From positions 16,175,059 to 16,239,058 of the forward strand of contig JAJEKV010000004.1 in NCBI GenBank assembly GCA_021234155.1: a stretch of 64,000 nucleotides of DNA, in the 5' to 3' direction. This DNA comes from Isoetes taiwanensis (Eukaryota > Streptophyta > Lycopodiopsida > Isoetales > Isoetaceae). Both the position numbers and the translations under genes were made by a program. The notes under the pieces are model-generated. The model made no database searches and was not told the DNA's origin. It saw only the letters and a program-made list of their open reading frames with translations. This document shows, one piece after another, positions 14,561 through 63,866 of this stretch (position 1 is the first letter of the stretch; each line of letters begins with the position of its first letter).

Positions 14561-14603
14561 AGTAACCAATTCTTCTTGATTTCCTTGAGAAATATTGATG
14601 TTC

Positions 14604-17692: not shown

Positions 17693-17695
17693 AAT

Positions 17696-23592: not shown

Positions 23593-23617
23593 AGACTTCA
23601 CAATTTTCTATAATCAG

Positions 23618-24127: not shown

Positions 24128-24179
24128 AGACAAAGACATGTTGAAAACTCCGGAGAGAAGGAGATAGCCGAGACTTTAA

Positions 24180-26220: not shown

Positions 26221-26864
26221 TTTCAGTCCATAAAGGTACAATTGGAGATGGAGGTCTTATAGACTTCCTCAACACGTAGATAACGTAATTTTATGCACCA
26301 CAAGATCACTAGGCTGCGGGTCAATTTGGAAACAGGGTGAATAGGGTGGCTATGGAAAACAAAAATCCCAACATCATATGGCTAAAACAAACATTCTGGC
26401 AGAATTAGCAATACTTGGAAGTAGTTGGCACATAAGTCCCTGAAAGGGAAAAATTATGACACAGGATGGAATGCCTTTGGTAGATTTCTGTGGTAATTAT
26501 GATTTCTTTGTTCTTAATCTAAGCGCCGATGATGATATGTTACCGCGAGGATGCCATGAGGAGACCGGAATAGATGGGGAGCAGTCGGTGTGGGATGGGA
26601 GTAGCGTAAGACTCCTGATAATGAAGACACAACTGGCAAAGATTGAAGAAGAGGAGCTCTTCATACAATTAAAACAGAAGTCATACATGCGGTCCTCCTA
26701 AAAGAATCAAGAGGTCGGAAACATGGAGGCATAATAACCTTAGGCCTTATTTTATGAACATGTTCCATAAGTGGCAGCAGTAAGAGAGAGGCTCATGTCC
26801 TCTTGTTTCGGATTTCACAAATTACCCGTTAGCGGCAAATTTGATGAGCCATCAATATCTTTCG

Positions 26865-28430: not shown

Positions 28431-28446
28431 GAAGGAAGGAAGGAAG
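28431..28446 (-). repeat. (GGAA)n tail of a minus-strand retroelement
   Basis: Four GGAA units adjoin TTTTTAACGTC. On the minus strand this is GACGTTAAAAATTTC followed by TTCC repeats, parallel to the LINE tails at 10845 and 54535. Confidence 0.75.
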
Positions 28447-29880: not shown

Positions 29881-30155
29881 AGGGGCGATGCTAAGAGCAA
29901 TCTTTGGGACACAAAGCGGTCCAAAATAATTCAAAGCAATCCGTAACTCCGGTACCTATGGCCGATCGTGGATGGAAATCCTTTTGCCGCCCCGAGGCTT
30001 GGCTGGTAACCTGAGTAGAGCGGAGCCGATCCGATTCTCAGATCTTGATGCTAACTCCACAATGAAGTTACATGAGCATGGCTTTGGTGACTGGTATTTG
30101 AGGGATAGGGACTGAAGTCACACCTTGCCTCCAAAAAAAAAACAAAAAAAGGGCA
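29881..30155 (+). other. Sequence ending in a poly-A run, possible retrocopy end
   Basis: The segment ends in an A-rich run at about 30134-30150 after GACTGAAGTCACACCTTGCC. No open frame or known repeat was recognised. It may be the 3' end of a SINE or processed transcript. Confidence 0.3.
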
Positions 30156-39821: not shown

Positions 39822-40449
39822 GCACAAACCATTAACATCAACATATAAAAATAAAATCCCCAACACATAACAACCAACACATAACAACCATTGATATTAA
39901 CAACCAACACATAATTACCATTGACATTAATTAACACAACCATTGGGTCCAACACATTTAAATTAAAATCCCCTTAAACCCCCTTTGGTTTGGGTGCATA
40001 TTCACAGGGGGTGACTCACGGGCAACGAGAGAGTCGTTGGATAGGCATATTCACCCCTTATTCCTTAATCTACACCGTGACGTAAAGTTCCTCATTTGTG
40101 GGGTATGCAAGTACAAAATTTGCTATCTTGTATAACAAGATTCACAAAATACTATAAGATTTCAAAGCGGAATACTATATGGTGTTGATTTAGCGGCGCG
40201 TGCAAAATACAATTATGAGGGCTCTCGCTGCCCTACGCCACCCCGTGTGAATATGCACCCAAACCAAAGGGGTTCAAGGGGGATTTTAATTTAAATGTGT
40301 TGGACCCAATGGTTAATGTTAATTAATGTCAATGGTAGTTATGTGTTGATTGTTAATGTCAATGGTTGTTATGTGTTGGTTGTTATGTGTTATGTGTTAT
40401 GTGTTGGGGATTTAATTTTTATATGTTGGATGTTAATAGTTTGTGTTGC
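39822..40449. mobile_element. Foldback/MITE-like element, copy 2 (best preserved)
   Basis: The left arm (39822-40011) and right arm (40241-40449) are inverted repeats of about 190-200 bp. Left words GCACAAACCATTAACATCAA, CAACACATTTAAATTAAAAT and GGTTTGGGTGCATATTCACA all return inverted on the right. Homology with copy 1 extends beyond the right arm into AATTTGGCCCCTTTAGGGCC up to about 40490. The 229-bp core has no open frame of note. The arms carry an internal minisatellite-like run of TTATGTGTTGGTTG words. It is non-autonomous, and the transposase source is not in the window. Confidence 0.8.
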
Positions 40450-43900: not shown

Positions 43901-45042
43901 GGTATTTGTGCCAAGAACGCCACATGTGTGAGATGCATGCGGCGTTCCCTCTTCCCCGGGATTATTTTGAATGCATCGTCGATATCGTGTTTGGAGGTTA
44001 GGCGGCTTTTGATATTTCCGTGTCTATATACGTGCTTTTGATAGGAGGTTAGGCGGCTTTTGATATTTCGATGTCTATATCGTGCTTTTGATATTTCTTC
44101 CGCTCTCAGCGGCTTATCTTTCCTTCTGGCTGCTTTGATCTTTCTCCGTACCGGCATTTGGATTAGACCAAGATCCGAATGGTTCTAGCCTCCGGAAGGG
44201 GCCAAGTTTTAAAGCAAATAAACTGCCTATTTCTTCTAGCAAGGCAGCTCTTAATCTATGTTCGGATGTTTTGCATCATCGCCGCGATAAGAATTTATTC
44301 TTTCAAAGGAAAAATATCATTTTGCAACTATTTTTTACCGATCACGCATTTGCGGCTAGATCTTGTGGAATTGAAGACCGGAGGCATCATTTGCAACAAC
44401 GATTTTTGTATAGAAAACTTTTTTTTTTTTTTTTTTTTTTGAAGGCAAGGAGACACCATGAAGGTGCCATTTTTATATTATCGAGGAATAAAAGAGTACA
44501 TGCATCAACAATATGGGAAGTTACTACAGAGAGCATACCTCAACATCTTCGCTTCCCATAAGCTATGCTTATTCAAAACTCCTTTTAAGGGTTAAATTGG
44601 AAATATTTTAGCAAATCGGATAGCCCTCTTATGGCTTGATAAAATTAAGCACAAAAGCGGGTAAGTAATCCTTTCTAGGATTTAGTATGCTCTTGGATTT
44701 GTGACAGCGATGGATTGGAGAAAAAAAATGTCTCTATCGCTTTAACTTAGATTAGATTGCGTGCAAGCATTTTTATTTTCTGTTTAGAACTTCGACTTTG
44801 TAGGGAGGGAGGTTATCTTGATCTCCCATGTTTCTTCTCAAGTGCCAAAAATAACATGGCTATGGGGAATGGAGATCATCTATTCGAGGTAGTTCTCTGG
44901 ATTAAAGTTTTGCATTCTCGAATTTGCTTTTCATGTCGGTGTAGAGAAAGGTGAACTGCATTTCTTTGTTGATGATTTTTTTATGAGTATGATCTTGCAT
45001 CTTGATTTTTTTTTTTCACATGTCTAAGAAAAAGCAAGCTAA
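40946..45042. other. Intergenic sequence, nothing recognised
   Basis: Open frames (for example 42746-43009 on the plus strand, 43705-44157 on the minus strand) show no recognisable domain. The second one crosses a local duplication and is biased by it. A 22-base T run at 44419-44440 followed by GAAGGCAAGGAGACACCATG may be the reversed poly-A end of a retrocopy. Confidence 0.4.
43993..44095. repeat. Tandem duplication, 51-bp period
   Basis: GGAGGTTAGGCGGCTTTTGA, then TATTTC, GTCTATAT and CGTGCTTTTGAT, occurs twice, from 43993 and 44044, nearly identical. The minus-strand translation therefore shows a repeated RHxNIKSRLTS peptide. Confidence 0.85.
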
Positions 45043-45138
45043 AATATGCACCCAAACCAAAGGGGTTTTAGGGGATTTTAATTAAAATGTGTTGGATGCA
45101 ATGGTTTGTGTTAATTAATGTTAATGATAGTGATGTGG
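45043..45138. mobile_element. Foldback/MITE-like element, copy 3 (single arm)
   Basis: ATATGCACCCAAACCAAAGG, then GATTTTAATTAAAATGTGTTGGA and ATGGTTTGTGTTAATTAATG, match the right arm of the copy at 39.8 kb. No partner arm was found nearby, so this is a solo end. Confidence 0.75.
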
Positions 45139-47320
45139 TGCGGGCCATAGGATGGATAGATCCAGAGCGATTGAGGTGGTGACCTCGTTTAAAATATCTT
45201 TGCCATCGGTGGGCAATGCATTTCCAAAACATATGGATGCAATCTTATCGTTGTTATAAACGCCATGCACCTTAATGAAGTTGGTGCCATCGCCAAAAAG
45301 GACTTCATACGAGGAAGATTTTTACATTTTAGAAGTGGTTCACAAGTCATAGAAAAGAGATCAAAGTTCCTATTGACTTGATCCTAAGCCCACAATAGTG
45401 TTTGATACTGTACACTTCTAATAAATTGAACCTGGATGATAGAAGTTTAGAGCCTAAAAACATGCTTCCTTTGTGTATCAAGAATATGGTTGTTGACAAG
45501 GATATGAGGCTATTAGTTTCATCTTCCAAAGTTGCATCCAGATATGGGTCTTGACATAAAATTTAATGCATAAGGGACAACCTTTTAATACATTATAACT
45601 TAAACTATCTCAACCGCTGCTGAACTATTCATGTTGTTTAATTTAAAACATCAATGAACAACTCATGTCTTTAGATACACGTCAAGCATTGCTTTTATAG
45701 AAAGAAAAAATCTACTTCCTTCACAACTGGCCTATAGTCTTGTAACCCACTAGGAAATGTTTGTCTATCACTAATTGATTATTCCTAAGCCACCACCATA
45801 ACCATTGCCATTAAAGGCCATTCCATACGCTAGTTGGTAAGCGCCAACAAGTATGCCACTTTGGAAGGTAAAGGAAGTGTTAAATGAAAGAAGCTTATTG
45901 GGATTTGCCGGGGTTCACGAAGGTGAACTAGCATGTAATACAAGTGGCCAACAATGCCAATCCCATTTATTAAAGTGAGTTCCACATGATGAAGATATTG
46001 GCTTGCATCTCCACGAAATTTGAGAATCAAGAAGAAGAGATTGCTTGAAAAAGTTAAGTGCCTCTTCAAGATATCCATGCTATGCATAAGTGTCATAATT
46101 CATATCCATGAGGCGATCTTTATCTTACTAGTAAGAGGGATCTATATTCGAATCGAGAAGAGAGAAACAAAATGCATCTAATTGGAATTGATGTTTTACA
46201 TTAATCTCAATCGAGTATTGAGTTTAGAATCCAATGCAAAATGGAAGTATGAATATATATTTCTCATATCAATATTAATTTATAACATAGAATCAAATCG
46301 ACATAGAAGCTTAATAGCATATTACTTAGGGAATAGAAAGCCTTTCATAATATAGCATGATAATATATTAATGAAGAAAGAAACTTTACATAGTCACTTG
46401 CCCTTTGGGACCACCAAAAATATCGTAGCCTTTTTCCTAACATCCTAAGGTATTGTAACTCTTTCTACACCGGAATAGTTTTGGAGTTCACGAGTACAAT
46501 ACACTATCAAAGTCTAGCCAAAGATCACGATCACTTGGATCTCTTCGCAGATTCTTTGTCCAACAATCGATTATCGTTCTTTATCCAAGATAGGTATTAG
46601 TCATTTGATGCCTTTGGAAAACCACCATTCCGCATGGCCCTTATTGAAGTTAATATGACTTCCCTCTTTGCAAATATCGGAGATGGTATATCCCAATCAC
46701 ACATGATACGTCTCTATCTCTGCTAATCTTATGAACCAACATCCTTCCTAGGACCAACATAGTGTTGGTGGTCGAGGGCGGAGGAGCCATCGGCTTGCAA
46801 ATATAGAATACTAGTAATGGTGCGTTCTTTATGAGGCGATTATTGGGTTCAACATGGATTCATATGGCATTAATGATGTGCAATTTGGGCTTCAAAATTT
46901 GTATAGTATTTTTATATCATAGAGACCTTGATGCACGGTTTCAATCTTTGGCGTGCCTACAATTCTCTTCCCTTTAAAAACTATTCTATTCTATTCTATT
47001 CCTTTACATTATTTTTTTTTTCTTGTCTTCACATTAGAATAAATAATGTAAAAGGCAATATTTGGGTGATGTCATGAACCTATAAATGATAAGAATGGGT
47101 ATGTCGTAACTTTAACCGAGAACACGCCAATGAACTTTACCCAAATGGATCCATGTATGTTGCAAACTCTTCATCTACCTCTTTGACGTCACCGTGTTGC
47201 AAACCCAATATTTGTTGTTTGGTGCCTCAGAACAACTCATATTGTTCTAAGTACTTCAAAATAGCTTTGGTTCATACTCTCGCAATTGATCCCAAATAAC
47301 TTAGGTGTCATGAATTAATT
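45139..47320. other. Intergenic sequence with a possible PPR-like scrap
   Basis: Mostly unrecognised. At 46035-46096 on the minus strand the translation reads YA(stop)HGYLEEALNFFKQ. This looks like the YAQHGxxEEALxxFxxM motif of plant pentatricopeptide repeat proteins, with CAG changed to TAG, but no second repeat could be read, so this is weak. A (TATTC)n array is at 46981-47001. Confidence 0.3.
46981..47001. repeat. (CTATT)n pentanucleotide microsatellite
   Basis: Four units follow TTTAAAAA. The same array with the same left context recurs at 50060, and the LINE end at 10860 has TTAAAAATTATTCTATTC, so this may be an eroded LINE tail. Confidence 0.8.
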
Positions 47321-47582
47321 ACTATCAATGAACTACCTTCAAAACCATAGTATTCAAATTTCTGTCATTGTGTGGGCATCATTAATAAATTCATATCATT
47401 GTGTTGGCATCATTAATAAGTTTGTTTGTTTTCCGACAAAAGTTAATAGGTTTACTATCAATGAACTACCTTCAAAACCATAGCATTCAAATTTCTGTCA
47501 TTGTGTGGGCATCATTAATAAATTCATGTCATTGTGTTGGCATCATTAATAAGTTTGTTTGTTTTTCTGACAAAAGTTAATA
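47321..47582. repeat. Tandem duplication, 133-bp period
   Basis: ACTATCAATGAACTACCTTC through GACAAAAGTTAATA is present twice, from 47321 and 47454, almost identical (a handful of substitutions, one inserted T). Each unit itself contains two sub-copies of CATTGTGT(T)GGCATCATTAATAA. Confidence 0.9.
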
Positions 47583-47875
47583 TCTCATTAGCATTCAAGA
47601 AAAGGTTGTGAAAGTATATATTTTGTTGTATAACTACAAAAGAATTGAAATCTAAGAATAAGTACAATATTTGATACACTTGATGCATTATTTGGTACTT
47701 GCATGTAAATGTCTAAGAATGAGTACAATATCATAGAGGCCTTATTGCTACTTGCATGCAAAGGTGGTTAAAAAAATTTGCTTGTTCAACAATAAAGCAT
47801 GAGAATAACTATAGAAAAGTCAAAGTTGTATATTCTGGTATTCTAAGTGTAGTACTCTCCAATAATATTTCATTT

Positions 47876-48118
47876 CATTTCAGCAATTTTTTTGCAACAT
47901 CTCTCATCTATTGGTATTTACTTCTTCATTTCCTAGCATAAACGGAACATACTTCTTGTTCCATATTGGCATCTCTTAAATATAAAGTAAGCTCATCATT
48001 TCAGCAATTTTTTTGCAACATCTCATGTATTGGTATGTACTACTTCATTTCCCAGGATAAATGGAACATACTTCTTGTTCCATATTGGCATCTCTTAAAC
48101 ATGAAGCAAACTCATCTA
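47876..48118. repeat. Tandem duplication, 121-bp period
   Basis: CAGCAATTTTTTTGCAACAT through GGAACATACTTCTTGTTCCA and ATTGGCATCTCTTAAA recurs from 47881 and 48002. Copies differ by about ten substitutions and small indels. Confidence 0.85.
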
Positions 48119-49521
48119 AGAAATGGAAGCATGAAGGTGTTAATTCGCATCAACTGCATCATAAAATCACAGATACTTCCATTCATAATTTGGCATTGAA
48201 AAATTGGAAGGATTTCCATTCATAACTTGGTAGTCAAGGTTTGAAATCTTGTGCACATCATCATGTGTAAACAGTAAGGGACTGCAAACAGTATAAAAGA
48301 AGCTCAAAGGGAAGAGCAAGCCTATGATATAATGTAAGACAACATCAGTAAGTGCTTTTTGCAGTAGTTACGAAGCAGTAGCTGCATGCGAAAGAAGATA
48401 ATGTGGACATATAATGTCATGCCAGTAATCTTTCTACACACACTATGCAGAGCCCTTACAATTAGAGAACTTTTATAAGCGAGATTGTTTTGAGTTCTGA
48501 GTCTATAAGAATCCATCCTCAAAAAATGCTCGTGTTGCAGACCTAAGCTTTGCATCAACTGTGTGATTTGAATAACACATGATTACAGGGCTTGAACTTG
48601 TTATAGAACAAAGCATAAAAGTGAATCAGTGGATCTGAAAACTTTACACACACCTTCAAAATGCAAAGACACAATATACTGTTAGAAAGGAAATGTGAAC
48701 TGCAGAACCCAGAACAAAATACATCTCATCTTGCTCCAATATGCAAATTCAACTATGCTAAAAGATCTTAGTTTTAAAAATAGTGTAAAACACATTTAAT
48801 TAGCGTGCAATAAATAGATACAAAACTGAAAAGAAAATCCTTACTGGAAGATGCTTGTCCTTTGCTCCAACCAAATGGTTCTATAAGGGTATGTAGCAGT
48901 CTCTCTGATTTGCAGGAAGAATGGAATGTCTTCTGTATGCCCAACTGATCTAGGATTTCCTGCTATAGCATCCTCTAAACATTCCTGTGTTGTTCTTTCC
49001 GTCCACCTCTAAGCTATTGCAAGCCCAACTATGCAAGCATAATAAACTTCCTAAGAGGCCCATTTTCATCCATCGAAACTCTCCTATTTCATTGTTTGAA
49101 ATCCAGATCTCTCAAGCTTAAAAGCCCATACTATCACTGGAGCGACATCTGCAATTTCTAGAAACCCGTCAGTATGCAAAAGCCATAACCAGACATGGCT
49201 GAGGTTTTTGCCGATGCTAACATTTTATGAAAGAAAAACATTGCTTTATTCAAGCATCCTCTGCCAGAAGCCCTCCAGTTCGTGGCTCTTTGCCAAGTAA
49301 TGGCTCCCGAAAAGCAATAACGGATAGCTGATGCTAGAGGAAAACCTATTTCTTTTTTTACAAACTAAACCTTGAGTTCACGTAATTCTAGCCGCCTTTA
49401 CTATAGCATGACATAGCCATAGCGGCCTTGAAGCCGTTTTGTCTTGCAAAATTGCTATCACTGAGCTGAAGAGGAGATCGCCATCGCCAGAGCAGGGTTT
49501 TTTTTTCTTGGTCTTGAGCTT
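48119..49521. other. Intergenic sequence, nothing recognised
   Basis: AT-rich with no domain match. A minus-strand stretch around 48850-49010 has a plausible splice donor (CCA|GTAAGG near 48840), but its translation contains a stop and matches nothing I know. Confidence 0.35.
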
Positions 49522-49660
49522 CATAATCTTGCCATTGAGCTATCGTGGCCGTTAAAATTTTAGGGCAAAATATTCTAGACCACCAGATTTACATAATCTT
49601 GCCATTGAGCTATCGTGGCCGTTAAAATTTTAGGGCAAAATATTCTAGACCACCAGATTT
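49522..49660. repeat. Perfect 70-bp tandem duplication
   Basis: CATAATCTTGCCATTGAGCT through CTAGACCACCAGATTTA is repeated from 49522 and 49592 with no difference visible. Such identity implies a recent event, or an assembly artefact. Confidence 0.9.
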
Positions 49661-50957
<1,297 letters not shown>

Positions 50958-51300
50958 TCATCATCTCTAGTAAGATCAGAATTATTGAATTAAGCCTACC
51001 CTTGGATCGGGACTGACTAGACTTAGACTAATGGTAGGCCTAATTCCATTCCACTGAATGAAATAGTTAGGAGTGAAAGCACCATAGGCATGCATATTTC
51101 TTTAATGGGCCTTGGAATAACCTGGGTTGAATCACGGAGGCCTTGACCATTACATAACCATTTTATATTCTAATAATTGTTAAATATGATTTGTTTTGTC
51201 GTATTATTATTATGATCATCATAGTTAAATATGTGTTATGGTTGTTATGTGTTATGTGTTATGGTTGTTCTTTATTAGGGCCCAAATTTTTTTTTAATAT

Positions 51301-51560
51301 AACAACCAACACATCACTATCATTAAGATTAATTAACACAAACCATTGCATCCAACACATTTTAATTACAATCCCCCCTAAACCCCCTTTGGTTTGGGTG
51401 CATATTCACAGGGGGTTACTCACGGGTATCGAGCTATTGGATGGGCATATATGTCCTTTATTCCTTGATCCGGACCGTACATAGCGATCCTCGTTTGTGG
51501 GGTATATTGTACAAATTTTTATATCTTGTATATTGAGGTTTGTGAAATACTATAAGGTTT
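51301..51560. mobile_element. Foldback/MITE-like element, copy 4 (left arm and core)
   Basis: AACAACCAACACATCACTAT, CATTGCATCCAACACATTTT and GGTTTGGGTGCATATTCACA give the left arm. The core then follows copy 2 (ACTCACGGG, TTATTCCTTGATC, TTTGTGGGGTATATTGTACA) up to about 51560. The right arm is missing. Upstream at 51225-51290, TTATGTGTTATGTGTTATGG and GGGCCCAAATTTTTTTTT resemble the outer arm of copy 2, hinting at a rearranged tip. Confidence 0.75.
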
Positions 51561-52389
51561 GAGGCCATTGAATCAATATTCAAGGCTTTGACATTAAGTT
51601 TAGTTGTTTTCAATGCAGCTTCTTGGCAATGCCATCGGATGTCGTTTTCGGAGTTCCATTTCTACATTTTTTGCTACCCACAAGCTTTCTAGAAGCTTCG
51701 ATTAGATTCTTAGGGTTCATGTGTCTTTGCAATTCTTATTTATTTGCTCATCTACAACTTCTTTCTCTGACTCTATTTGCATCAAATATGCATACATAAG
51801 TATTTTAGATTTGCATGCATATACCAATAGCAAACTTTAGTTTGTCTTAGTTTTGGTAATGGATTTTTATTTTGTCGGCTTGATGTTGGACTACAAATAT
51901 ATTGAAAGCCATGAGATAAATGCTAGAGAGATTAGCTTGATGAGAGAAAGATTAACTTCGGCAAGTAGAATTCTAACATCTAAAACTTTGCTTTTATTTG
52001 TCTTAGATTTTCTGAAGTTGTCGGGTTATTTTCACAGAGCGGAAGCGGTTGGGACTCCATTAATTGGGTCTTTGTGGATCTTGGATTAACTAAGGTCTTT
52101 GTCGTGCTTGGAATAACTAATGTGGCCTGAACTGCATTAGCTAGGTGATTTTCTTCTCTATAGAATTATAATAGAACCTCAAGAGTTCATTGTTCCTTAT
52201 TAGACTTTTCCTTTGCAGGCCACCACTATTTCTATCATCTTCATTCAAAGCATTTCTTTCTTTGAAGCCAAGAGTTTACATTATTCACAATGTGCCAGTA
52301 GGTTTCCATATATTTATGTGTTTTTAAACAGGTAATTTATTTGGTTGACAAGTTTGTTATGTTGTTTTGCATTTTGTTTTTAATTCTTT
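51561..52389. other. Intergenic sequence, nothing recognised
   Basis: No domain seen in any frame; T-rich. Confidence 0.4.
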
Positions 52390-52470
52390 CAGGATGACGA
52401 TGGCGGTGGCGATGGCGGTAGCGGCAAAGTGAGTCGGGACAGCCCGACTGAGCGTCGATGATACTTTTTA

Positions 52471-53390
52471 GTGTCAACGACCACCTTTCCTTTGACACTT
52501 TTGACGTTTTTGACGTGGTTTGCTTTTCGAGCTTGGCTCGTTGATCAACCATCACTGGCAACCCCCTCACAATTCTACACTCCCGACATGTCTGTTCAAG
52601 ACTCTCTGGCCCCGATTGACACACCAGTTCAATCACCGATTGGGTGCAATGCAGGAGTTGGCACTTCCTATTCACCCACTGCTGGACCAGACATAAGGAT
52701 CGAAATCTCTAATAGACATCTGAGTGAAATGCTTTACAGAATGCTCAGAATTGAACTGGTAAGCTTGAAGGCTAAGGTGGTAGAGCATGACTCTAGAATA
52801 ATGAGTTTGAAAGCCACTGTGGCAGAGCAGGAGAAGGAAATTATCAGCATCAAAGCACAGTCAAATCAAATTGACAAAATTGAGGAATTACAGACAGTTG
52901 TTAAGGAACAACAGGCAGAAACTAATAAGTGGGTTGAAGTGGTTAGGAAGCACAAAACTACTGAATCATTAAATGATATGAAAATGCCATTTCAGCCACC
53001 TTAGAAGAAGAGCAAAGAGAGCCCATAAAGCTCTCAATATCAGAGTTACAGGATTGAAGGATTTATCAGATCCTTCCAAAGCAGCAAGTGATTTTATCCA
53101 GCATAATCTGGATGTCCAAGATCATGAAATTGGTAGATCCTGAAAGGTGAACAATGGAACTCGCAGTCCAGCATTGATTTTCCGCTTTTGATCAGCAAAA
53201 AGGAGGCTAGAAGCTTTGAAGAGAAGGAGGAACTTACAGAAATTCTCAGATATTTTCATGGATGAAGATCTAACCATGATGCAAGTGGAACTTAAGAGGA
53301 AGTATTTAGAAGAAGTCACGAAATCTCGGAAAGAAAATAAGTGGGCTGTTTATCGGGATGGCTGAGTGATCATCAGGGACAAGCGTCCCA
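52471..53390 (+). pseudogene. LINE ORF1 (coiled coil, RRM-like, C-terminal domain)
   Basis: The open part (52471-53004) has a low-complexity N terminus, then heptad-like coiled-coil sequence (LKAKVVEHDSRIMSLKATVA, IDKIEELQTVVKEQQAE). After a stop or frameshift at 53002 the next frame reads AHKALNIRVTGLKDLSDPSK and AASDFIQHNLDVQDHEIGRS, the RRM-like core. Another frame gives PALIFRF, RRLEALKRRRNLQKFSDIFM, DEDLTMMQVELKRKYLEEV and KENKWAVYRDG, the C-terminal domain of trimeric L1-type ORF1 proteins. Such proteins coat LINE RNA as trimers. The true start may be a later ATG (MSVQDSLAPIDTP, about 52588). It is dead because of the stops. Confidence 0.75.
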
Positions 53391-53539
53391 AATAGGGATT
53401 GAGGATTATCATAGGCTCGTTATCGCTGGCAGTCTGGAATTGCAACGGGAAATTATGGAATACGCCGTTTGGACAGTCACAAGAAGGTAAAAAGACTTCC
53501 CTGATTGGCATACGTGTCGTCTAAAACATTGGCAGACCA

Positions 53540-54130
53540 AGGTAAGCGCTATTAGTTCTTAAGGACATCTAAATTGTTTGAGGAGATGGGTTTCTCTATG
53601 GGAAATATCCACCTTTTCAATACAGTATAATGGATAATAATCTGAATTTTACTCAGCGAGAAATCAGTCAGCTTATACGCCATGACTTGGAGTATCTTTA
53701 TATCTCAAATACATGGGTGAATCCGTCAAAGATCTGCTTGCTAAAAAGAAATTCTACAAGGATAAGGTTTCATCATAAGGCCGGATATTTAGATATTGAT
53801 CTGCGCAAATAAAGTGAGATACTCTATGGGGCGGTTTAGAGTATCATCTCACCAGTTGGAGATTGAGGTTGGTAGGACGAAAAATATTAGTCGTGAGGAT
53901 CAGATGTGCCCAATGTGCAATCTAAACATGGTTGAGTCAGAAGAACATTTTATTTTTACCTACACAACCTACTACATTACTAGAGGCGGTATCATTGTCT
54001 TTTTAATGACCCCACATTTCTACGACAGCTGGTAGAATATTACGATTTTAAATGTGTGTCTCACTTTGTATATGAAATATCTCTAGACGGGGAGAAATAT
54101 TCTCAAACAAAAGAATCCAAGGCCTGAAGC
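53540..54130 (+). pseudogene. LINE ORF2 C-terminal fragment with zinc-binding motif
   Basis: KLFEEMGFSMGNIHL and REISQLIRHDLEYLY lead into YSMGRFRVSSHQLEIEVGRT, KNISREDQMCPMCNLNMVES and EEHFIFTYTTYYITR. This is the typical RLSSHxLxIExGR...RxCxxC...VExExHFxxxCxxY ending of LINE ORF2 outside the plant L1 group; the last Cys is replaced by Thr (FTYTT). No YADD or endonuclease precedes it. The frame is interrupted at 53810. Confidence 0.7.
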
Positions 54131-54492
54131 AAACAAAATAACTAATTTCTTTTCACACGAGGTCAAATGATGATAAGATGATAGTGGACTCATCATCAAG
54201 AGAAAGTATCGACCCTAAAGGGTGACTTTGGCAATGTTTAAGAAGATAAAACGATCGTGACCATGAAACATAAAAAGTCTTTCGAGAAGAGGCCAAGCAT
54301 CAAGCATCAAAGCAAGCTAAGAAGGGGTATTATGAATTACTAAAAGAATCACAGAACAAATGGGCTATCTCCATCAAACCCTGCGAAAGCAGCATTCTTA
54401 GATTTTCAATTGTTAAACTTAATATTTTTGTTTCCATACTTTAGATAACAGGAGGGTTTTCCTCACGGAGGTCCCTGTTCGCTTTGTGTTAT

Positions 54493-54527
54493 GGTCTCAT
54501 AGACCCCGGGTGGGCCCGTGACGTTAA
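54493..54527 (+). promoter_or_regulatory. LINE 3'-end hairpin and GACGTTAA motif
   Basis: GGTCT-CAT-AGACC (54493-54505) can form a 5-bp stem. After 14 bases comes GACGTTAA (54520-54527) and then the simple-sequence tail. Equivalent structures lie on the minus strand at 10879-10890/10864-10871 and 28469-28481/28453-28460. By analogy with L2/CR1-like LINEs, such a hairpin is the likely recognition site of the element's reverse transcriptase. Confidence 0.6.
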
Positions 54528-54534
54528 TAAATCT

Positions 54535-54578
54535 TTTCTTTCTTTCTTTCTTTCTTTCTTTTTTCTTTCTTTCTTTTC
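54535..54578 (+). repeat. (TTTC)n tail of the LINE
   Basis: About ten TTTC units with one longer T run directly follow GACGTTAATAAATC. Confidence 0.9.
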
Positions 54579-54840
54579 AGTTCAATGCCAACATTGTTGA
54601 ATCTGCGTAGTTTGGCTTGGCAGTAATATAGACACTGCTAGAAATAGACACTCATGCAAAACTTATCTTTTTTTGCTTGAGGTGATGCATTGTACTTCTA
54701 TGCCTTTTCCTGATTTGTAGATACTTGTGTTGTCTGGGGTATATGTGGTTGCAGATGGTTTAGGAGGGAGAAAAGTAATGTCCAGAAATATTGTCTTTGT
54801 ATGAAGTAGGTGTTCTTGCATTTCTATTCTCCGAATCGAT

Positions 54841-54949
54841 ACTTTCTAATATTAGATGTTTTTTATTAGTAGTCTAATATTAGATGTTTTATTAATAAAA
54901 ACATCCGATATTATACTACTTTCTAATATTAGATGTTTTTTATTAATAG
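54841..54949. repeat. Palindrome flanked by direct repeats
   Basis: TAATATTAGATGTTTT (54875-54890) pairs with AAAACATCCGATATTA (about 54898-54913). The segment is flanked by near-identical direct copies of ACTTTCTAATATTAGATG (54841 and 54918, 77 bp apart). It could be a tiny foldback element or a local rearrangement. Confidence 0.6.
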
Positions 54950-55382
54950 ATCCGATGTCGCTTTGCAATTTTTTTCAATCTCGGAGGTTTTCTATGAAAA
55001 GATGAGATTAATATACAAAACAGAAAGTCGCGAGACCACATGTCCAAAAACTTTTATGTCTAAAGATTCACGAGTCTTTGGTGAATCTGAAACAAAGGAA
55101 ACAAGTGTTAAATTAGAATTTGTTCTGCAAAAGGTAGTATCTCGATGGTGCTATGACAATATTATTTCTATCTTCAAAAGTGACATAAATTTGAACAAAG
55201 CAATTTCCTATTGCAAAGTACAAAAGTATTTGGATTTCTTTGGATTAAAAGGCAAACTTGGCTATTGTATGACATGTTTTCTTCTATGCATGAATATTTG
55301 TATTAAAGGCACTATAGAACTTCGAGGAGTTAGTATTGCTCCCTTGGATTGTTGCCAAATGGAAAGTGAAGACCCCATCTAG
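54933..55382 (+). CDS. Unrecognised 149-codon ORF
   Basis: The frame begins MFFINRSDVALQFFSISEVF, contains a Lys/Glu-rich middle (TESRETTCPKTFMSKDS) and a Cys/Leu/Phe-rich C-terminal part (LGYCMTCFLLCMNICIKGTI) that could be one weak membrane segment. I recognise no domain. The start lies inside the palindromic repeat at 54841-54949, which argues against a conserved gene start. Upstream is the LINE tail and downstream unannotated AT-rich DNA. It may be chance, or the end of an unknown repeat. Confidence 0.2.
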   Translation: MFFINRSDVALQFFSISEVFYEKMRLIYKTESRETTCPKTFMSKDSRVFGESETKETSVKLEFVLQKVVSRWCYDNIISIFKSDINLNKAISYCKVQKYLDFFGLKGKLGYCMTCFLLCMNICIKGTIELRGVSIAPLDCCQMESEDPI

Positions 55383-56865
55383 AGTGATCCCATTGTTGAT
55401 TGAATGGGGCGGCGTTTGCGGCTTCCACAATATTCAGGAAGCCATTTGGAGGATCATAATAAGTGGGTTGGATGTTTTATAACTAATCTAGAATGATAGC
55501 ATCCGCCATGAATTTTCATTGCCGTTGGAACTTGGTAATATTTCTAAGCATAAGGCTTTCAAAGCTTGAACATGATTTTTTGAACCGCGAATCGGGCCTT
55601 TAACATGAATTTTGCATGATTCTAAGAAACCTATCTATAGTACACCCACACAAGCCCGACTTTATTTGGTCTCATTATCCTTTTCTCGAGATGATTGGTA
55701 CACTTATCATTCTCATGTGTGTATGCTGGTTGTTGCAGTGAATAAAATAAAATGTACTGAAACTCAAATTCTAGAAGTTGAGGATTTGCTTCCAAAGAAA
55801 ATGCCGCAATAGCATGCAACAACAATATGCATGCAGCATTTGCCTTACAGGTATGAAATGCAATGATCTGAGGTGTTTCATCATTAAGAATTATAGTGAA
55901 AACAAGGGCATAAGTGATTAGTAGAATTAAAATATTTTATCAGAAAATTATTTCTAGAGATAACCATATATGTATATGTCTTTTAAGGGGAAATTAATAG
56001 ATCATTTTTTGGCAGCATGAGATAGATCTGACCACAAAACGAAACATTAATGAACATAAACTCTCATAGACATCAACATTTGTGACCAGTTATTTAAAAC
56101 TTTTGAGACCCATCCACATCAATGCAAACAACTTTAGAATCAATTTGCATGGAAGTCTATACTCACTTTTCCCAATGAGGCATCTATGGTGCACAAGTAG
56201 AGGAAGGGTTGTAAGTTTTAGGGCTTAGAGGTTTATGGTATCATCAACCAATGAAAGAGCTGCTGAATCAAGCCACAAGTACTACTCCAGGTTTAGGACT
56301 TTGGGTTTAGGGTTCATGGGTTTATGCTTTTAGGATTTAGGGTTTATGATTTATGTTTTCATGAATGATGAAAAAGTAAGAGGTGTAGCATGCAACTCAT
56401 GAATGGGCATGCAATAATATATGTGAACCATGTCATCACATCATAGATATTTCATTGCTTATATTTGGTTAGCAAAACTAGGACTACTATGTTGTGTGCA
56501 AAATATGTAGATACAAATGTGCTTAGACTTGGGAATGGACAAAGCATAGGTTGCATGAATATGCAACGAATAAATTTCTAGCTTTCATAGAAGGAGACAA
56601 TTGAGTAGCCAAGTTCTATATTTATCAAGTACAGTTCCTTTAAAGATGGATAATACTAAGAAACCTCCACCTATAAACTACAGTACACCTATACATTCCA
56701 CACGTCCAAGACTAATGCCCGGCATCGCCGCACATGTTTCTAGTCTATATTATTTTCTTAAATGCCACGTTGTTGCTACATGCTGAGAAACCTTAGTAAC
56801 ACTTGCATTCATTGTGTTTATCTTAGCTTTCATTAACTGATATCAACATATACGCGAAGAACAAC
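55383..56865. other. Intergenic sequence, nothing recognised
   Basis: No domain match. At 56293-56355 several GGGTTTAGGGTT-like words occur, reminiscent of degenerate plant telomere repeats, but they are irregular. Confidence 0.4.
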
Positions 56866-57369
56866 AACATGGTATCGCGAAGAATTGTTGAGGCTTTGGC
56901 AAATGTCAAGATTTTTTGCGAAAAAGGTGGGAGGAACGAAAGTTCGTGGAAGAAAAAGAGACATTAAGTAAGTTATATGATGAATTAGAGGAGCTTAAGA
57001 AAGTGGGTACGGACTCTTTTTAGATTGCAACAGGTTATTGATGCTATTCGTGGTCTTGAAGTGGCCCAAATTCAATCGGCTTGAGTTAAACTGGATTAAC
57101 CCGGCCGAAAAGATGGAGATCGTTGTAATAAAATTTTTTTAGAGCTTCCAAAGCGGAAGAGGTATGCAGCTACTATGCACTCTTTATCTCTGTTGGATGG
57201 GAGGGTAATGACAGAGCCAAATGAGATTAAGATCCCCTTACTCAATACTTTGAAACTTTTTTTAAGGTCAAACACTTGCCTCATGAAGATGTAATGCGAG
57301 GATATTGTGCTTTCTAAAGGTTCATGCAATTCTTTCACAAGCGGAATCTCAATTGTTAGAGGCCCCACT

Positions 57370-58480
57370 TTCCATGTCGAATTGCGGCGGCAACATTTGA
57401 GTTAACCCCGGATAAATGTCGAGATATGGATGGTATCCACAGAGAATTTTTAAAAGGTATTGGGAATGGGCCGTCGGTAAGCATTATGGAGGCCTACAAA
57501 GATTTGTGTACTTCACATCAATTTGATAGGATTTTGAATCTGGGTTTGATTTCTCTTATTCCTAAAGTGAAAGAACCCGTGGAGCATTCATGATTGGGCC
57601 CAATAACTTTTCTATCTACTATCTATAAAATTATTGCAAAAGCCTATCGAGGAAAAGACTTAAGCAGTTTTGGGATTGAGAATAGATGCGGCTCGGTCGG
57701 GCTTTCTTCCGTGTCGACAAATTTTTCATAATATAGTGGCAAGCATATGAAGGAGTTCATTGGGCCCAATGTTCGAGTCAAAATCTTCTATATTTAAAAT
57801 TGGATTTTGCTAAAGCTTATGATAGTGTGAAGTGGACTTTCTTGGATGCCATGCTTTTTGAAATTGGGATTTGGAGTGCAGTTTTAGATCTATGATGCAA
57901 AAATGTTGATTTACGCTAAGGGGGTAGTCTTGTATCATGAAGAACCATTGGTGCTTTTTTCCAATTGAGCGTGGAATAAGGCAAGGTTGCCCTTTAGCTC
58001 CTTTTTTGTTTACTATAGTGGCCGAAGGACTTTTGCAACTATTGCATGAGGGGCTGAAAAAGGATGGTTTGGTAAAGGGATTATTATTGGAGGAAGGTGA
58101 ATGAGGTTTTGGTTAATGGTTTTTGCATTTATACCTTCTTGCTAGTGGATGGTGTGAAGAGAATAATGTCGCGGATAATCAAAAAGATTTTGGATATATT
58201 TTCAATTGCATCCTGGCTGTCTCCTTTAATTGGGCTAAGTGTAGTGCTTTATGGGTGGGGAAGGAAGCAGGTTGCATTTTTTAGGAGTCCCCTTTGGTTT
58301 AGATATTGACATGAATGAAGCATGGGATGAAATTATCTTAAATTTACAAAGGCAAAGCGATTTGGTGGAGAGGTTCAAAGTTATCCTTGGCGGTAGAATT
58401 CAAGTAGCTAAGTCGATGATTGAACAATACGCATATTTATTTGGTTTCGGTTCTATTGGCTCCGACTTCTAAGTTTGCGA
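57370..58480 (+). pseudogene. LINE reverse transcriptase (L1-like), second copy
   Basis: NLGLISLIPKVKEP and ITFLSTIYKIIAKAY, reconstructed across frames, cover 57540-57640. LKLDFAKAYDSVKWTFLDAM lies near 57797-57855 and ERGIRQGCPLAPFLFTIVAE near 57965-58025. The YADD box expected at about 58115-58150 is destroyed: sequence there reads IYTFLLVDG. Downstream, FLGVPFGLDIDMNEAWDEII and VILGGRIQVAKSMI are well preserved (58275-58430). Loss of the catalytic box and many frameshifts make it inactive. Its VRQGCPLAP-type signature is the same as that of the LINE at 20-26 kb. Confidence 0.8.
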
Positions 58481-59495
58481 GAGATAAAAAAAGATTGTAA
58501 TGAGATTTTGTGCGGTGTATGCCAGATCAAGGAGGCAACGTGAAGGTGGCGTGGAAGAAATGTATGTTGTTTAAACAACAAGGAGGACTTGGTATGTTGG
58601 ATCTTTCTTACGGTAAGGTCTTAGCTTCTAAGCTATTGTTCATTTGTTGAAAGATGATTGTGCATCACCGTGTATGAAGTTACTTAAAACAATCGTAAAA
58701 AGAAGTGTATGGTTTTCATAAGCGAGGTGTGAGAATTGAGCTCCCTTGGGCATTGTTATATCCATTGAAAGCTTCTTCACATGCCTCTCATCTTGAAAGG
58801 CTTGCCGCCCGAAGGTAGTCCAACAGTGATTACATTTGATTGGGAAGCTTGTCTCCGGGGCATCTTCCCCTTTTCTGTGGTTGCCTTTGTATACTCATGG
58901 ACAACTACACCCGGTTATGTAGAATGCATCGCGCATTCCCAAAGCGAGGTGGAGGAGAGCAGGTATTATTTCTATTGAACATTGGTATTTTGGTATTGAC
59001 ATTGCTCCTTGGCAATGGTTTGATGGAGACATATGGGTTGTTGGATAAAGATATCGGATATGGGCTATGTAGCAAGTGCTCTTCCTCTAATTAAGAAGGT
59101 GGGTAACAAGAGATGCCGAACTTTGTTCAAGGTATTAAAGAAGGTAAAAGAAGCTAGTGAGTTCATGCTACAGATTGCTACCTCCTCTAATACTTTATCA
59201 CCTTCTCGAAACAAGGGATTCACTCATGTATAAGGGGGATATGCCATCTGGCGTGCATGGGGTGGCAAAAAACCCCCCAGATATGGATCTTTAAAAGCAA
59301 ATTTTGACCCCTTTCGAATAAAAATTACCTAGGATAGTGCAAAAATACCGGAAAAGGACCCCCGTCGAAATGGTATGTACGAAAATGGGTCCAAAACCCC
59401 TTCCGGTGCATGCGGATGGGTTATACGCCCAAAGCGTGAACCCCTTGTCTCGAAAATGGCGCTTAGGGACTTTTGCCTTCTCATGGCAATCCATC

Positions 59496-59690
59496 CGGAA
59501 CCTTGTTTGGTCTAAATATAATCCTCCAAAGGTAAATGTTCTACTTTGGCGGGTGATTCATCGCTCTTTGAGAGTTAATGAGATGGTTCATCGCTTTAAG
59601 CGGGGAGTAAGCCCACTTTGCCCAACAATGTGTGATTGCATTGAAACATTGGACCTTGTTTTATATTTATGTGCAGGTGAGTAGTCTTAG
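59496..59690 (+). pseudogene. LINE zf-RVT-like domain, second copy
   Basis: RNLVWSKYNPPKVNVLLWRV, IHRSLRVNEMVHRFKRGVSP and LCPTMCDCIETLDLVLYLCA match the plant L1 C-terminal zinc-binding domain (W...PPKVxxFLWR...CPxC...ETxxHxxxxC, with the His replaced by Val). It is open within a 115-codon frame from 59337 that starts in non-LINE sequence. Confidence 0.8.
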
Positions 59691-60414
59691 GTCACGGCTG
59701 CATTCTCTTTTGGATTATCTTTGGATAGTCGGCACTTTCTTTTGGGTATTTATCCAAATCGGTTGCTTCTAAAAGGATTGCATTTCACATGGCAAAGTCT
59801 TGGCTAATATGGAGTGTATGGAATATGAAGGCTAAGAAAGGATTTTTATGATAAGTTTATTTCTTCTCGGTGGTGCTTCCACCTAAATTAAGTAGAAGTT
59901 GTATAATTCGGATCTCCAATTGGCACGATCGTATTAAAATTCAATATGGAGTGATCATCTAAAAGTGATTGATGCTTCAGGGACATTTCTTACTTACGGA
60001 AGTACTTTGTAATATTTTGAGTGTATAATAATATGAAGTAAAAACACGTTCAAAAAAAATATTCTAAGCTTTAGCAAAACTTACATTAAACAACTCAAGG
60101 GATTTGAATCCTAGTATTTCCGGTTTCACTTAAACATAAAACTTCTCATCCAAACAAAATAGCTTGAAGCTTAAACTCTTGCAGCTTGACATAAATGTAG
60201 ACACCAAATTGTGGCCATTAGTGTTATGGAATTGAAGCACAATAATGGTCAACCATTATTATGTCCTTCAAAAAAAACTTTTTCGATGTAACTATTACAA
60301 AGATCTAAACATAGAACTTGATTTTAATAAATGCTCATTTTCGGTTTCTATCCTTTATTTTATTCATCATTGAATATTTATTTACAAAGAGATGGCTAGA
60401 GATTCGGCAACGCT

Positions 60415-60985
60415 GTTCGCAAAGCCATAGATAACTCCAATTATGAGCCCAAAAGATCCTTTCTTTTAATTTGTTAAAAGCACGGGCAAAGGACAAAAAG
60501 CTATCAAATTGTATTATGGGAAGGACCTTCTTTCGAACCCCAAGCTTTGAGCCACATTACTTAAGCTTCCATAGATATGACACCCAAACTTGGTCATATA
60601 CTTCACATCATTATCTCCAGGGGAAAGTCTGGATCCATGAGCACAAAGAAGTCATCTTGTGAGTCGGCAAATCTTGGCAAGAGAAAAGCTTGAGCAAGTA
60701 TGCAATGTCGTATCGCCACTAAAGTGATCCGGTTGAGGCTCCCATTGAAAGAAACATGTGCTTGTGAAAAGGCCTAACAAAGTCATCATGTGGTATGCCA
60801 TATAGTTGAAGATAATCAAAGTTGATGCCATTTTGGCATAGAAAATCAATGGAGTCTTGAATAGTCATCCACATCAAATCAAACTGGAAGTTGAATTCCC
60901 GTAAATAGGGAGGAATCTACCATGATCATCAAAGAATGTGAGGCCCAAAGGTTTGGATGATCTTGAGCGTGTTAACATTCTTTTG
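60415..60985 (-). pseudogene. CAF1 (CCR4-associated factor 1) deadenylase pseudogene
   Basis: Minus-strand translation, with frame changes, gives LKIIQ (about 60960), LTFFDDHGRF, REFNFQFDL, IQDSIDFLCQNGINFDYLQL and YGIPHDDFVRPFHKHMFLS. It goes on to HSG-YDIAYLLKLFSCQDLP (about 60690-60730), KYMTKFGCHIYGSLSNVAQS, LGFERRSFP, FDSFLSFARAFNKLKERIFW and GVIYGFA. This is the order of the CAF1 RNase D-type exonuclease, the catalytic subunit of CCR4-NOT that shortens mRNA poly(A) tails in the cytoplasm. The N-terminal part with the first DxE catalytic pair is missing. At least three frameshifts are seen and no introns. Plant CAF1 genes are often intronless, so a retrocopy and a decayed duplicate look alike. 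Confidence 0.8.
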
Positions 60986-62439
60986 CAATGATTTCAACAA
61001 AAATGGACTTATTCTGATTTAATAGATAGCACTTCAAAGGATGCCATTATAAGAATTTTTATATTGTTTAATTCTTCTTGATTGTTATAATTTTTATAAG
61101 TTTTTATTATATAAGTTTATCTTTAAATTAGAACTATAATGGTTGTCAAAGAATGAAAGTACTTTTCAAACTAATTTTCACTTGAAACTATTTAGAATTA
61201 GACATTTCAAAATATAAAATTTCAATTTTCGGTGATTTAACAAATTAAAATTTGCCAATCATGATAATTCTTAAATGAAATCGATGGTTTAATAAGTGGT
61301 TGACTTAAAATTCAATATGAGAATTTCACAATTGACAAACTTTTAATACTTTAGGAAAAGTTTTAAGTTGAAATTAATTAAATGATAAAGTTAATGTTTT
61401 AATAATAACTATTAAATAATTTTATTATTGATGAAATAAAACATAATTAATAATAAGCTATTTAATTTTTTAAGACATAGGCGTCATTACTTAATTAATT
61501 TCAATCTAAAGATTCTTCTATAAATATTTCTAAAAAATAACATTTTAATCATACAGAGTTTATTTTAGATTAAAATTTAATTCTAAATAGAATAGAATAG
61601 AATAGAGTAAAGTGAAAATTAGTTTAGAAAGCAATCTTATAATTTAGTAGCCATCATACTTTTGATCTAAAGGTAAATTGAAGCAATTTTTGAAATCAAT
61701 AAGAGTTGAAAATACTTATAATCTTATCATGGCATCCTTGAAGTATATCTATTAGATTTGAATAAGTCCAAATTTTGTTGAATATGTCATAATGTGGGGT
61801 AGTGCATGAAAGGCCCCTTGCTCATGTGGCTAGGGGTTGCACGACTACCTGTGAAATTCAATGTCATTTGCAACATTAGAGTAGTGCTTGTAAATGTTAG
61901 ATATATGTTGCAATTCGGTCTCAGTTATATCTCCATACTTGTATTCGTTGAATGAGGTGATCCACTTCTTTGTTAAGACTATCAAAAGCAAAATCCATGC
62001 CACAAGAGAAGAGTTTCTAAATGCGGTCAAGACGATGCGTTTTTCAATGCCCACCTGAACTTTATAATGCCCACTGAACTTTATATCCGCGTTTTATATC
62101 CTTTTTTTTTGTTGAAGAAAAAGGTAAATGGGAGGAAAAAAGGTAAATGATATTTTCATTAAAAAAGGTCAAAGTTATATGCGTTTTTGGTTAGAAGATA
62201 TTTTTGGGCTTTGCGGTGCGACTTGCAAATCGAAGCCAAAGTCTAGTTTTAGGGGCTGTAGCCATCATCGATTTGTTGGCTAAAATTTACTTTCGAAAAG
62301 GAATCATTCTTGCGACTCTTTTCGCAAAGCCCGGATTTGAGGAAAATTTCGTGGATTACTATAATGCTTAAATGCCTCGGACATTCACTTAAAAGACATT
62401 TCCTAGTTTGACATGTATGGCGGTTATTTTCTTTAATAT
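60986..62439. other. AT-rich intergenic sequence
   Basis: Very AT-rich between 61060 and 61620, with no coding signal. A (AATAG)n array is at 61586-61606. Exons further 5' of the kinesin pseudogene were looked for in 62160-62440 but not recognised. Confidence 0.45.
61586..61606. repeat. (AATAG)n pentanucleotide microsatellite
   Basis: Four units, fifth occurrence of this pentanucleotide in the window. Confidence 0.85.
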
Positions 62440-63866
62440 AGATCTAAGAATGAAACAAGCTGCCGACATTTTAAAGCGGCAAGCATATCAATTAGTGCAA
62501 AATTTTGAAATGCTTTACAAAGAAGAGCAAGTTTTAAGGAAGAGATACTTCAACATCTTTGGAAGGTACATATAAAGGATAATATTTGTGAAATAGGCTC
62601 AATTAGGTTGCTAATTTCTTTATTTGCCTTAGATATGAAAGGGAAGCTTAGAGTGTATGCTGTTTTAGGAGGCCTACGGTTGAGAAAGAAAAGGTTGAAA
62701 ACCGAAGATGGTTCTTATCATCCGGATGAATTCACCTTGGAGCACCCTTGGAAGGATGGACAAGTCAAAAAGCACAAGTTTGATCATGTATTTGATGGGC
62801 GTAAAATAAATTATTATTTACGTCCATGACCTATGGGTCTTTGTTGGACGTAAATAAATTATTATTATTATTATTATTTGATGAAGAAGCAAGCCAAGAT
62901 GCTATATTTAAAAATACAAAGGTGTGCATCTTCTTCATAACTATAATGTATGCATATTTGCATATGTTCAAACCGATCCGGAAAGACTTTCACTATCTAT
63001 GGCAATCAAGAAACCCAGGGCTTACACCAAGAGCAACTAAGGAACTTTTTAAAAAGCGTCCGGAACACGTTCTCTTTTTCATTGAAGGTGCTAGTTGTTT
63101 TGCACTCTAGAAGCCTATCATTAAGTTGTTTTACCCGTGCAAATGATTGAAATGTTTTTTGGGTGGAACCAGCCTACATCTGCCGGAACTTTTACAGGAT
63201 ACTTTTAGTGGACTTGCTTCTTCTAAGGAATTTTAAAGGCGTAAGCTTGAAATCAAGAAAGATTGAAGGTAAAATAGTCCATTTTATCCGGCATTACTAC
63301 TTGTTCCCTTTGTTTTAATTACGAGGACATGGTGGTAGTGGAAAATGCAACTCTTGTGCCGGTGATTACAAGGGCTGACTTAGAAACAATAGTAATGTGG
63401 AGTTGAAAAGCGGCATACATCCGGGACCCAAATGAATGCGAATGTTCTCGCTCACATTTGATACTATCTATTATAATCGAGTACAAACATGCAAACTCAG
63501 TCCGTTGTGAAAGGCAAAGTAAGATAAGAAAAGACACATTTACGCTTTGTAGATTGGTTTTCTTTGGTTTGAAGTTAATATAAATCCCATCAATTGCGGT
63601 GAGTTTTGTGGACTTGGCTGGTTCCCAAAGAATAAAAACAATTAAAGGAGGCCCAAAGTATAAATAAGTCCTTATCTCAGAGACTTTGGGACGCGTTATT
63701 AGTTCACTGGGCCATAGGAGAGCGGCACATACCTTATTGAAATCACAAGCTTACCATTCTTATGAGTGATTCTCTTGAGGAAATGCAAAACGCGGCTCAT
63801 GTTTGTCAACATATCTCCCCACGAGTCAAATTTGGATGAGACTCACAACTCTCTCCGGTATGTGAA
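62440..63866 (+). pseudogene. KCBP-like kinesin (kinesin-14) motor-domain pseudogene
   Basis: Exon pieces read: neck helix LYKEEQVLRKRYFN (about 62510-62555), an intron (62566-62632, GT...AG), MKGKLRVY and DEFTLEHPWKDGQVKKHKFD (62635-62790). An insertion follows, then EEASQDAIFKNTK (62884-62922), SGKTFTIYG (remains of the P loop GQTGSGKT, about 62980), PGLTPRATKELF and FSFSLK (to 63087). Next come LEIKKD (63245-63265), MVVVENATLVPV (63329-63365), RSHLILSI (about 63450), FVDLAGSQRIK (63604-63638), AQSINKSLS, NHKLTILMSDSL and ISPHESNLDETHNSL (to about 63857). This is the minus-end motor of plant KCBP (ZWICHEL), a calmodulin-regulated microtubule motor acting in division and trichome shape. Multiple frameshifts, a partly lost P loop and a lost YLVQSAVDGYN segment show decay. 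Retained introns mean it is not a processed copy. Confidence 0.88.
62798..62874. mobile_element. 77-bp palindromic insertion with 9-bp target duplication
   Basis: The insertion carries inverted arms AATAAATTATTATTTACGTC and GGACGTAAATAAATTATTAT around a short loop (CATGACCTATGGGTCTTTGTT). It is flanked by the direct repeat TATTTGATG at 62789-62797 and 62875-62883. Removing the insertion and one repeat rejoins DHVFD with EEASQDAIF in frame, the expected KCBP sequence. A 9-bp duplication is typical of Mutator-like elements; 8 bp (hAT) is possible if the first base match is chance. Confidence 0.85.

Follow-up and report, generated by a model that had tools for sequence, protein, structure and literature searches.

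A shared terminus followed by different tandem repeats in candidate LINE 3' ends of Isoetes taiwanensis

A shared terminus and its tandem arrays

The window analyzed here is a stretch of 64,000 nucleotides from Isoetes taiwanensis. It contains four copies (A, B, C, and D) of a sequence end in which the octamer GACGTTAA, or GACGTAAA in its place in copy D, is followed by an A/T-rich joint and then by a tandem array of short units. With a probability of about 0.6, we consider them to be decayed, truncated, or broken copies of related LINEs, whose 3' end would be recognized by the element's enzyme and whose tails would be made by slippage. LINE ends with a recognized structure and with repeats other than poly(A) are known, and varied tails are known from other LINEs and from SINEs. 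The initial annotation had reported copies A, B, and C, and we found their coordinates, stems, GACGTTAA, and tails base for base as described; copy D was absent from it. The features of the four copies are as follows.

54486-54533, plus strand: 3'-terminal region of copy A, with stem GGTCT/AGACC, GACGTTAA, and joint TAAATC
54493-54505, plus strand: stem GGTCT-CAT-AGACC of copy A
54520-54527, plus strand: GACGTTAA of copy A
54534-54578, plus strand: interrupted (TTTC)n tail of copy A
10860-10905, minus strand: copy B, with outer stem GTCCCAT/GTGGGAC, inner stem GACC/GGTC, GACGTTAA, and A/T joint
10890-10879, minus strand: inner stem GACC-TATT-GGTC of copy B
10871-10864, minus strand: GACGTTAA of copy B
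10844-10859, minus strand: (TATTC)3.2 tail of copy B
28447-28496, minus strand: copy C, with stem AACCC/GGGTT, GACGTTAA, and A/T joint
28481-28469, minus strand: stem AACCC-ATT-GGGTT of copy C
28460-28453, minus strand: GACGTTAA of copy C
28431-28446, minus strand: (TTCC)4 tail of copy C
62798-62857, plus strand: copy D, with outer stem GTCCA/TGGAC (longer in the fold), inner stem GACC/GGTC, and GACGTAAA
62828-62839, plus strand: inner stem GACC/GGTC of copy D
62847-62854, plus strand: GACGTAAA of copy D, replacing GACGTTAA
62858-62878, plus strand: (ATT)7 tail of copy D
62789-62797, plus strand: left copy, TATTTGATG, of the putative target-site duplication of D
62875-62883, plus strand: right copy, TATTTGATG, of the same putative duplication, sharing 4 bases with the tail end

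An array was counted when a unit of 3-6 bases was present in at least 3 copies and over at least 12 bases, starting 2-12 bases after the site. An array followed GACGTTAA in this way at 3/3 sites, against a background of 308 out of 127,864 positions (0.24%). The number of GACGTTAA sites was ordinary by itself, with three sites against a shuffle mean of 1.2, and 11 out of 100 shuffles reached three. Among the 18,271 octamers with 3-12 occurrences, three had at least three array-followed sites, and GACGTTAA was the only one of the three with every site followed by an array. The remaining two octamers overlap one another, and each was array-followed at 3/6 sites; judged by position, a tandem duplication accounts for two of these sites, spaced by 133 bases, and a third meets copy A's own tail from the opposite side. 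For the form GACGTWAA, 4 out of 6 sites enter an array within 2-12 bases, and one remaining site is the palindromic partner inside D. All four copies have an array beginning 2-12 bases past GACGTWAA, after the A/T joint, and in this sense the tails begin at a fixed point of the element. The consensus of the terminus over the four copies is GACGTWAAWAAWT, with GACGUUAA as its core and an A/U-rich joint.

The near-expected count of the octamer would suit a chance explanation, in which a common octamer happened to adjoin unrelated microsatellites. This explanation is extremely unlikely, since the association of octamer and array is far above chance, B, C, and D are similar to each other, and D is flanked by a direct repeat.

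Copy D as a putative insertion

Copy D was found by a local-alignment scan with B, which returned 62800-62880 on the plus strand, where GTCCATGACCTATGGGTCTTTGTTGGACGTAAATAAATT is followed by (ATT)7. D aligned with B at a local score of 46-48, and 20 shuffled windows gave B no more than 42. D appears to be an insertion of ~77 bases. One copy of a 9-base direct repeat lies immediately before it, and the other overlaps the end of its tail. About 0.014 such matches would be expected over the range searched, by an arithmetic that ignores the A/T-rich context. Given the position of this repeat, at the start of D and at the end of its tail, the array probably arrived as part of the inserted element.

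Direct-repeat searches at the other copies gave one chance-level 9-mer match each, with an estimated ~0.13 (A), ~0.25 (B), and ~0.19 (C) matches expected by chance over the range. The match of C starts exactly at the end of the tail and would mean a 3.4-kb element, in which no LINE coding sequence was seen.

By eye, the left end of D (62798-62815) looks like its own 3' end repeated imperfectly in direct orientation. It could have arisen from a template jump during reverse transcription.

Sequences upstream of the copies

LINE-like remains were recognized by motif before copies A and B. The remains before B seem to be interrupted by a probable LTR retrotransposon.

52462-54035, plus strand: LINE-like remains before A, consisting of ORFs assigned by motif
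52462-53004, plus strand: coiled-coil ORF, ORF1-like
52982-53365, plus strand: possible continuation of the ORF1-like ORF
53793-54035, plus strand: piece with MCPMCNLNMVESEEH, a Cys/His-like motif of the ORF2 C-terminus
18064-19700, minus strand: RT-like remains of LINE B, by three-frame reading, with shifting frames
10872-11422, minus strand: presumed continuation of LINE B past the LTR retrotransposon, with the C-terminal LCRHGVIEDESH motif and 3' UTR
11422-18063, minus strand: probable LTR retrotransposon nested in LINE B, with LTRs of ~370 bases
11422-11790 and 17695-18063, minus strand: LTRs of that element

Going by their motifs, we take the ORFs before A to be ORF1 and the end of ORF2 of a LINE; a Pfam search of these ORFs gave no family above its cut-off. 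In LINE B, a three-frame reading found the RT-like motifs FVDFTYAFDTVPRELL, GCPLSPTLFGLYVDQLE, YADDV, and VDSYKYLGVEF at ~19.4-18.1 kb, and the C-terminal LCRHGVIEDESH motif lies at ~11.2 kb, with a 3' UTR running from there to B. Similar motifs occur in other plant LINEs. Pfam RVT_1 matched the RT remains with an E value of 0.064, which is below the cut-off, and two pieces of these remains had no match in PDB up to E 10. Assigned by motif, copy B seems to be the end of a LINE that was split by an LTR retrotransposon. No target-site duplication was evident at the flanks of the LTR retrotransposon, and thus LINE B is continuous only putatively, by this reading. Pfam found no family above cut-off in two ORFs of the LTR retrotransposon. 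Its 603-codon ORF (14604-16415) has a degenerate 9-base tandem repeat, GAATGTGGT, at one end (14610-14820).

Two ORFs upstream of C matched no Pfam family, and nothing LINE-like was seen there. The region of 26400-30100 is G+C-rich and has short open frames. In 2-kb steps, G+C is 47-53% across 26001-30000 and 30-44% elsewhere in the window. A search of a plasmid collection gave no match for 26.4-30.1 kb.

The three copies first reported had been called LINE 3' ends with different tails. The LINE-like remains before B and A and the direct repeat at D speak in part for this identification, but the remains are assigned by motif only. Rfam at gathering thresholds and a tRNA gene search each gave 0 matches. 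Protein searches of IMG/VR found 10 stretches fitting the pattern of A's C-terminal piece and two fitting that of B's RT piece, with a relative confirmed in none of them. Two DNA patterns matched 0 stretches in IMG/VR, while a third, of 16 bases, matched 15, and chance matches are expected at such a short length. A pattern search of GTDB genomes gave 0 matches. An end with GACGTTAA was not met in the available literature, which was searched by words.

Relationship among the copies

Judging by their sequences, B, C, and D are related. B and C aligned with a local score of 59 (the shuffled-window maximum for B again being 42), and leave-one-out profiles run over the window recovered B with an E value of 1.3e-7, C with 3.3e-5, and D with 4.6e-4. 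A has the terminus and the layout in common with these three, and a closer kinship is a candidate relationship.

When A was left out of the profile, only 13 bases returned, GTGACGTTAATAA, with an E value of 2. A scored 30 against B and 37 against C, within the range of the shuffled windows for A, which gave up to 39. The C-terminal parts of A and B scored 45 against a null maximum of 50 in shuffled controls, and A's C-terminal part scored 40 against B's RT part, where the null mean was 41. In the regions upstream of the ends and arrays, A and C aligned over 160 bases with a score that was reached by 0.5% of 400 random window pieces (28 pairs tested). Eight of the 28 upstream pairs were below 5%; in two of these, A was paired with an array site lacking such an end. 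Apart from its four source copies, a covariance model (R1) matched the reverse strand of D (E 0.14) and, at chance level, two other places (E 3.9 and 4.1).

There may be two LINE families, with B, C, and D in one and A in another that has only the short terminal motif in common with them; we rate this somewhat below even odds. A drops out of the leave-one-out test except for GTGACGTTAATAA, its scores against B and C are those of shuffled windows, and it is above 97% of random pieces with the unrelated array sites 1196 (0.0275) and 61605 (0.015) as well. Against this stand the 160-base alignment of A with C, the same layout, and the LINE-like remains. If there were two families, the common motif would come from shared ancestry of the recognized end or from convergence, and either would fit the mechanism proposed below.

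Predicted structure of the 3' end

The initial annotation had described a paired hairpin whose two arms change together. We could not uphold this, since the covariation in the four sequences was within that of shuffles. The common alignment gave four predicted pairs, one with a double change; A breaks 2/4 and C breaks 1/4. The covariation score of 0.250 was reached by 61/500 shuffles, a test with little power for four sequences, and one double-change pair was reached by 255/500 shuffles of the four. Paired cells amounted to 81.3%, which was reached by 87/500 shuffles, while slid controls gave at most 62.5%; a control slid by +1 likewise yielded one double change. Among random 32-mers of the window, ~17-21% contain a perfect stem of 4 bp whose loop has 3-4 bases, and 4-7% contain one of 5 bp.

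The three named stems were also considered as one homologous hairpin, and this was rejected because the alignment puts A's stem elsewhere than those of B and C. In B, the counterpart of A's stem is GGTC-CCAT-GACC, which lies 5' of the stem earlier named there by one unit. A G-rich hairpin further upstream, common to A, B, and C, was rejected as well, for its folds were inconsistent (z -0.80, 0.66, and -1.75).

Compared with 200 shuffles, the predicted folds of B (z -3.08, 1/200 as good) and D (z -5.23, 0/200 as good) stood out, and those of A (z -0.59) and C (z 0.11) were not beyond the shuffles. A's minimum-energy fold is a different and longer helix than GGTCT/AGACC. A structured 3' end is thus supported by folding predictions in B and D only. 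As noticed post hoc, the 3' arm of the longest helix in A, B, and D includes the GAC of GACGTTAA, and this is not so in C.

Proposed origin of the tails

The tail units are TTTC (A), TATTC (B), TTCC (C), and ATT (D), and the A/T joints in front of them are of similar length. The tail has 94% matches in A and 100% in D, and those of B and C are exact runs; no copy (0/4) ends in (A)n.

We propose that the element's RNA would have a short structured region at its 3' end, with GACGUUAA and the A/U-rich joint as its close and the tandem repeats after them. The element's own reverse transcriptase would most likely bind this end, and target-primed reverse transcription would start in or after the joint. 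The enzyme would then slip on the final few bases of the template and add repeats to the copy. Since the repeats would serve merely as a priming and slipping track, the unit would be free to change, and it would do so once a copy with a mutated tail became the source. The part in front of the tail would stay fixed meanwhile.

Alternatively, the active element may have kept its tail unchanged. All the units would then go back to a single ancestral tail, for instance (TATTC)n, that was altered in the inserted copies by point mutations and by slippage during DNA replication. The copies do appear old and broken, and TATTC, TTTC, TTCC, and ATT are only a few changes apart. Furthermore, the AATAG class, to which B's tail belongs, makes up five of the seven pentamer arrays of at least 2.8 units in the window. 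However, the arrays are quite pure, so that a whole array would need replacing. We regard divergence after insertion as possible though rather unlikely.

The dominance of the AATAG class also bears on its other four arrays, which have no GACGT end.

1160-1196: CTATT/AATAG array
46981-47001: CTATT/AATAG array
50062-50081: CTATT/AATAG array
61586-61606: CTATT/AATAG array

These arrays might be further tails of the same machinery, left by SINEs or other LINEs. TTAAAAA precedes CTATT at 46981 and 50062, much as in B, and the unit class is dominant among pentamers. The array at 1160-1196 has a 9-base direct repeat, TCTAAACAT, whose copies are 96 bases apart and which, as in D, shares 4 bases with the end of the array; ~0.04 such repeats would be expected by chance in the range searched, and the same place holds a 73-base tandem duplication. 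Some upstream pairs scored above 95% of random pieces, among them D-46981 (0.0275), 46981-61605 (0.0425), A-1196, and A-61605, but one or two of 28 tested pairs would fall below 0.05 by chance. Besides lacking the GACGT end, the arrays have no match to the terminal profile. Direct repeats of 8-9 bases lie 618 and 807 bases off at 46981, 61605 has one 8-base repeat 437 bases away, and 50062 has none of at least 8 bases. It is quite unlikely that these four arrays are tails of the same machinery.

Building on slippage at a recognized end, these copies might even represent a land-plant LINE of the stringent type, in which the terminal structure would include the GAC of the fixed GACGUUAA, a possibility raised by the folds of B and D, and in which the tail unit would drift freely. 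Such a LINE would have written several microsatellite classes (ATT, TATTC, TTTC, and TTCC), and the excess of CTATT arrays in the window would be part of its output. We consider this extended proposal unlikely. If the pattern of one end with varied tails held genome-wide, it would provide a natural series of one recognized RNA end with many tail units. One could then tell the requirements of a LINE reverse transcriptase (the structure and GACGUUAA) apart from a feature that it tolerates (the tail), and certain microsatellites of a plant genome would have a named source. Both parts are already in print as principles.

Comparison with known retroposons

The RandI/Dualen clade, which has both an APE and a restriction-like endonuclease, resembles some of the present copies in its tails. 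In the available part of PMC3747384, the tail is (ATT)n or (CTATTT)n in all eight RandI families of green algae and (ATT)n or (CTTT)n in the SINEs that share RandI ends. RandI/Dualen and the Chlamydomonas SINEX-1, -2, -4, and -5/6 thus include the units of D and A and come near that of B, and they too carry different units on related ends. However, (TTCC)n is not listed in that part of PMC3747384, and a likeness that rests on tails is not diagnostic.

In the same part of that paper, (A)n is the tail of 224 out of 233 L1 families of flowering plants and the other nine have no repeat (PMC3747384), and the present copies differ from that (A)n type. The earlier remark that a plant family with a changing tail unit would be unusual is to be read beside both the flowering-plant L1 families and the green-algal RandI elements and SINEs, whose tails vary. 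RTE tails are given there as (TTG)n or (TTGATG)n (PMC3747384). An RTE-like (TTGATG)n tail was considered for TTGATGAA after B and TTTGATGAA after D and was rejected as a coincidence, since D's sequence is repeated target and has no second unit.

A plant L1 lineage with a conserved 3' hairpin and compensatory changes was described by Ohshima (PMC3747384, available part). The monocot L1 lineage ME1/1a (LINE1-1_ZM, ZmSINE2, and ZmSINE3) is like the present copies in its short 3' hairpin with a variable stem and in its conserved bases 3' of the stem, and stringent recognition was proposed for it. It differs in its compensatory changes, its 3' flank CGAG, its loop UCU, and the (T)n or (A)n tails of its SINEs, whereas the present copies have GACGTTAA as flank, microsatellite tails, and covariation within that of shuffles.

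In zebrafish L2 LINEs, recognition of the 3' stem-loop by ORF2 has been established (PMC4176376, available part). ZfL2-1, ZfL2-2, and UnaL2 are of the stringent type and have a short terminal repeat unit, and their 3' stem-loop binds ORF2 and is required for retrotransposition. These are animal elements of the L2 clade in which recognition was tested, while the present likeness is an analogy drawn from sequence alone. In Aedes, a SINE with changing tails was attributed to slippage retrotransposition in the part of the report available (Tu, Li and Mao 2004). As here, one retroposon has changing 3' tandem repeats, but it is an insect SINE.

Other features of the window

The window also contains one L1-type LINE that was identified with Pfam.

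20818-26160, plus strand: L1-type LINE in several broken frames

Matches above cut-off were DUF4283 (20818-21405, E 1.7e-6) and RVT_1 (24466-25290, E 1.5e-14), and those to an endonuclease (23068-23592) and zf-RVT (25825-26160) were below it. DUF4283 is typical of plant L1 and points to a land plant as the source of the window.

Repeats with AATCCCCTTAAACCCCCTTTGGTTTGGGTGCATATTCAC or a close form of it are found at 6663-7005, 39839-40428, 45034-45140, and 51300-51563. The one at 39839-40428 has three nested pairs of inverted arms that are 92-96% complementary, in the manner of a MITE. An exact 70-base tandem duplication lies at 49522-49661, and tandem duplications of 133 bases (96%) and 119 bases (90%) lie at 47319-47582 and 47875-48116, respectively.
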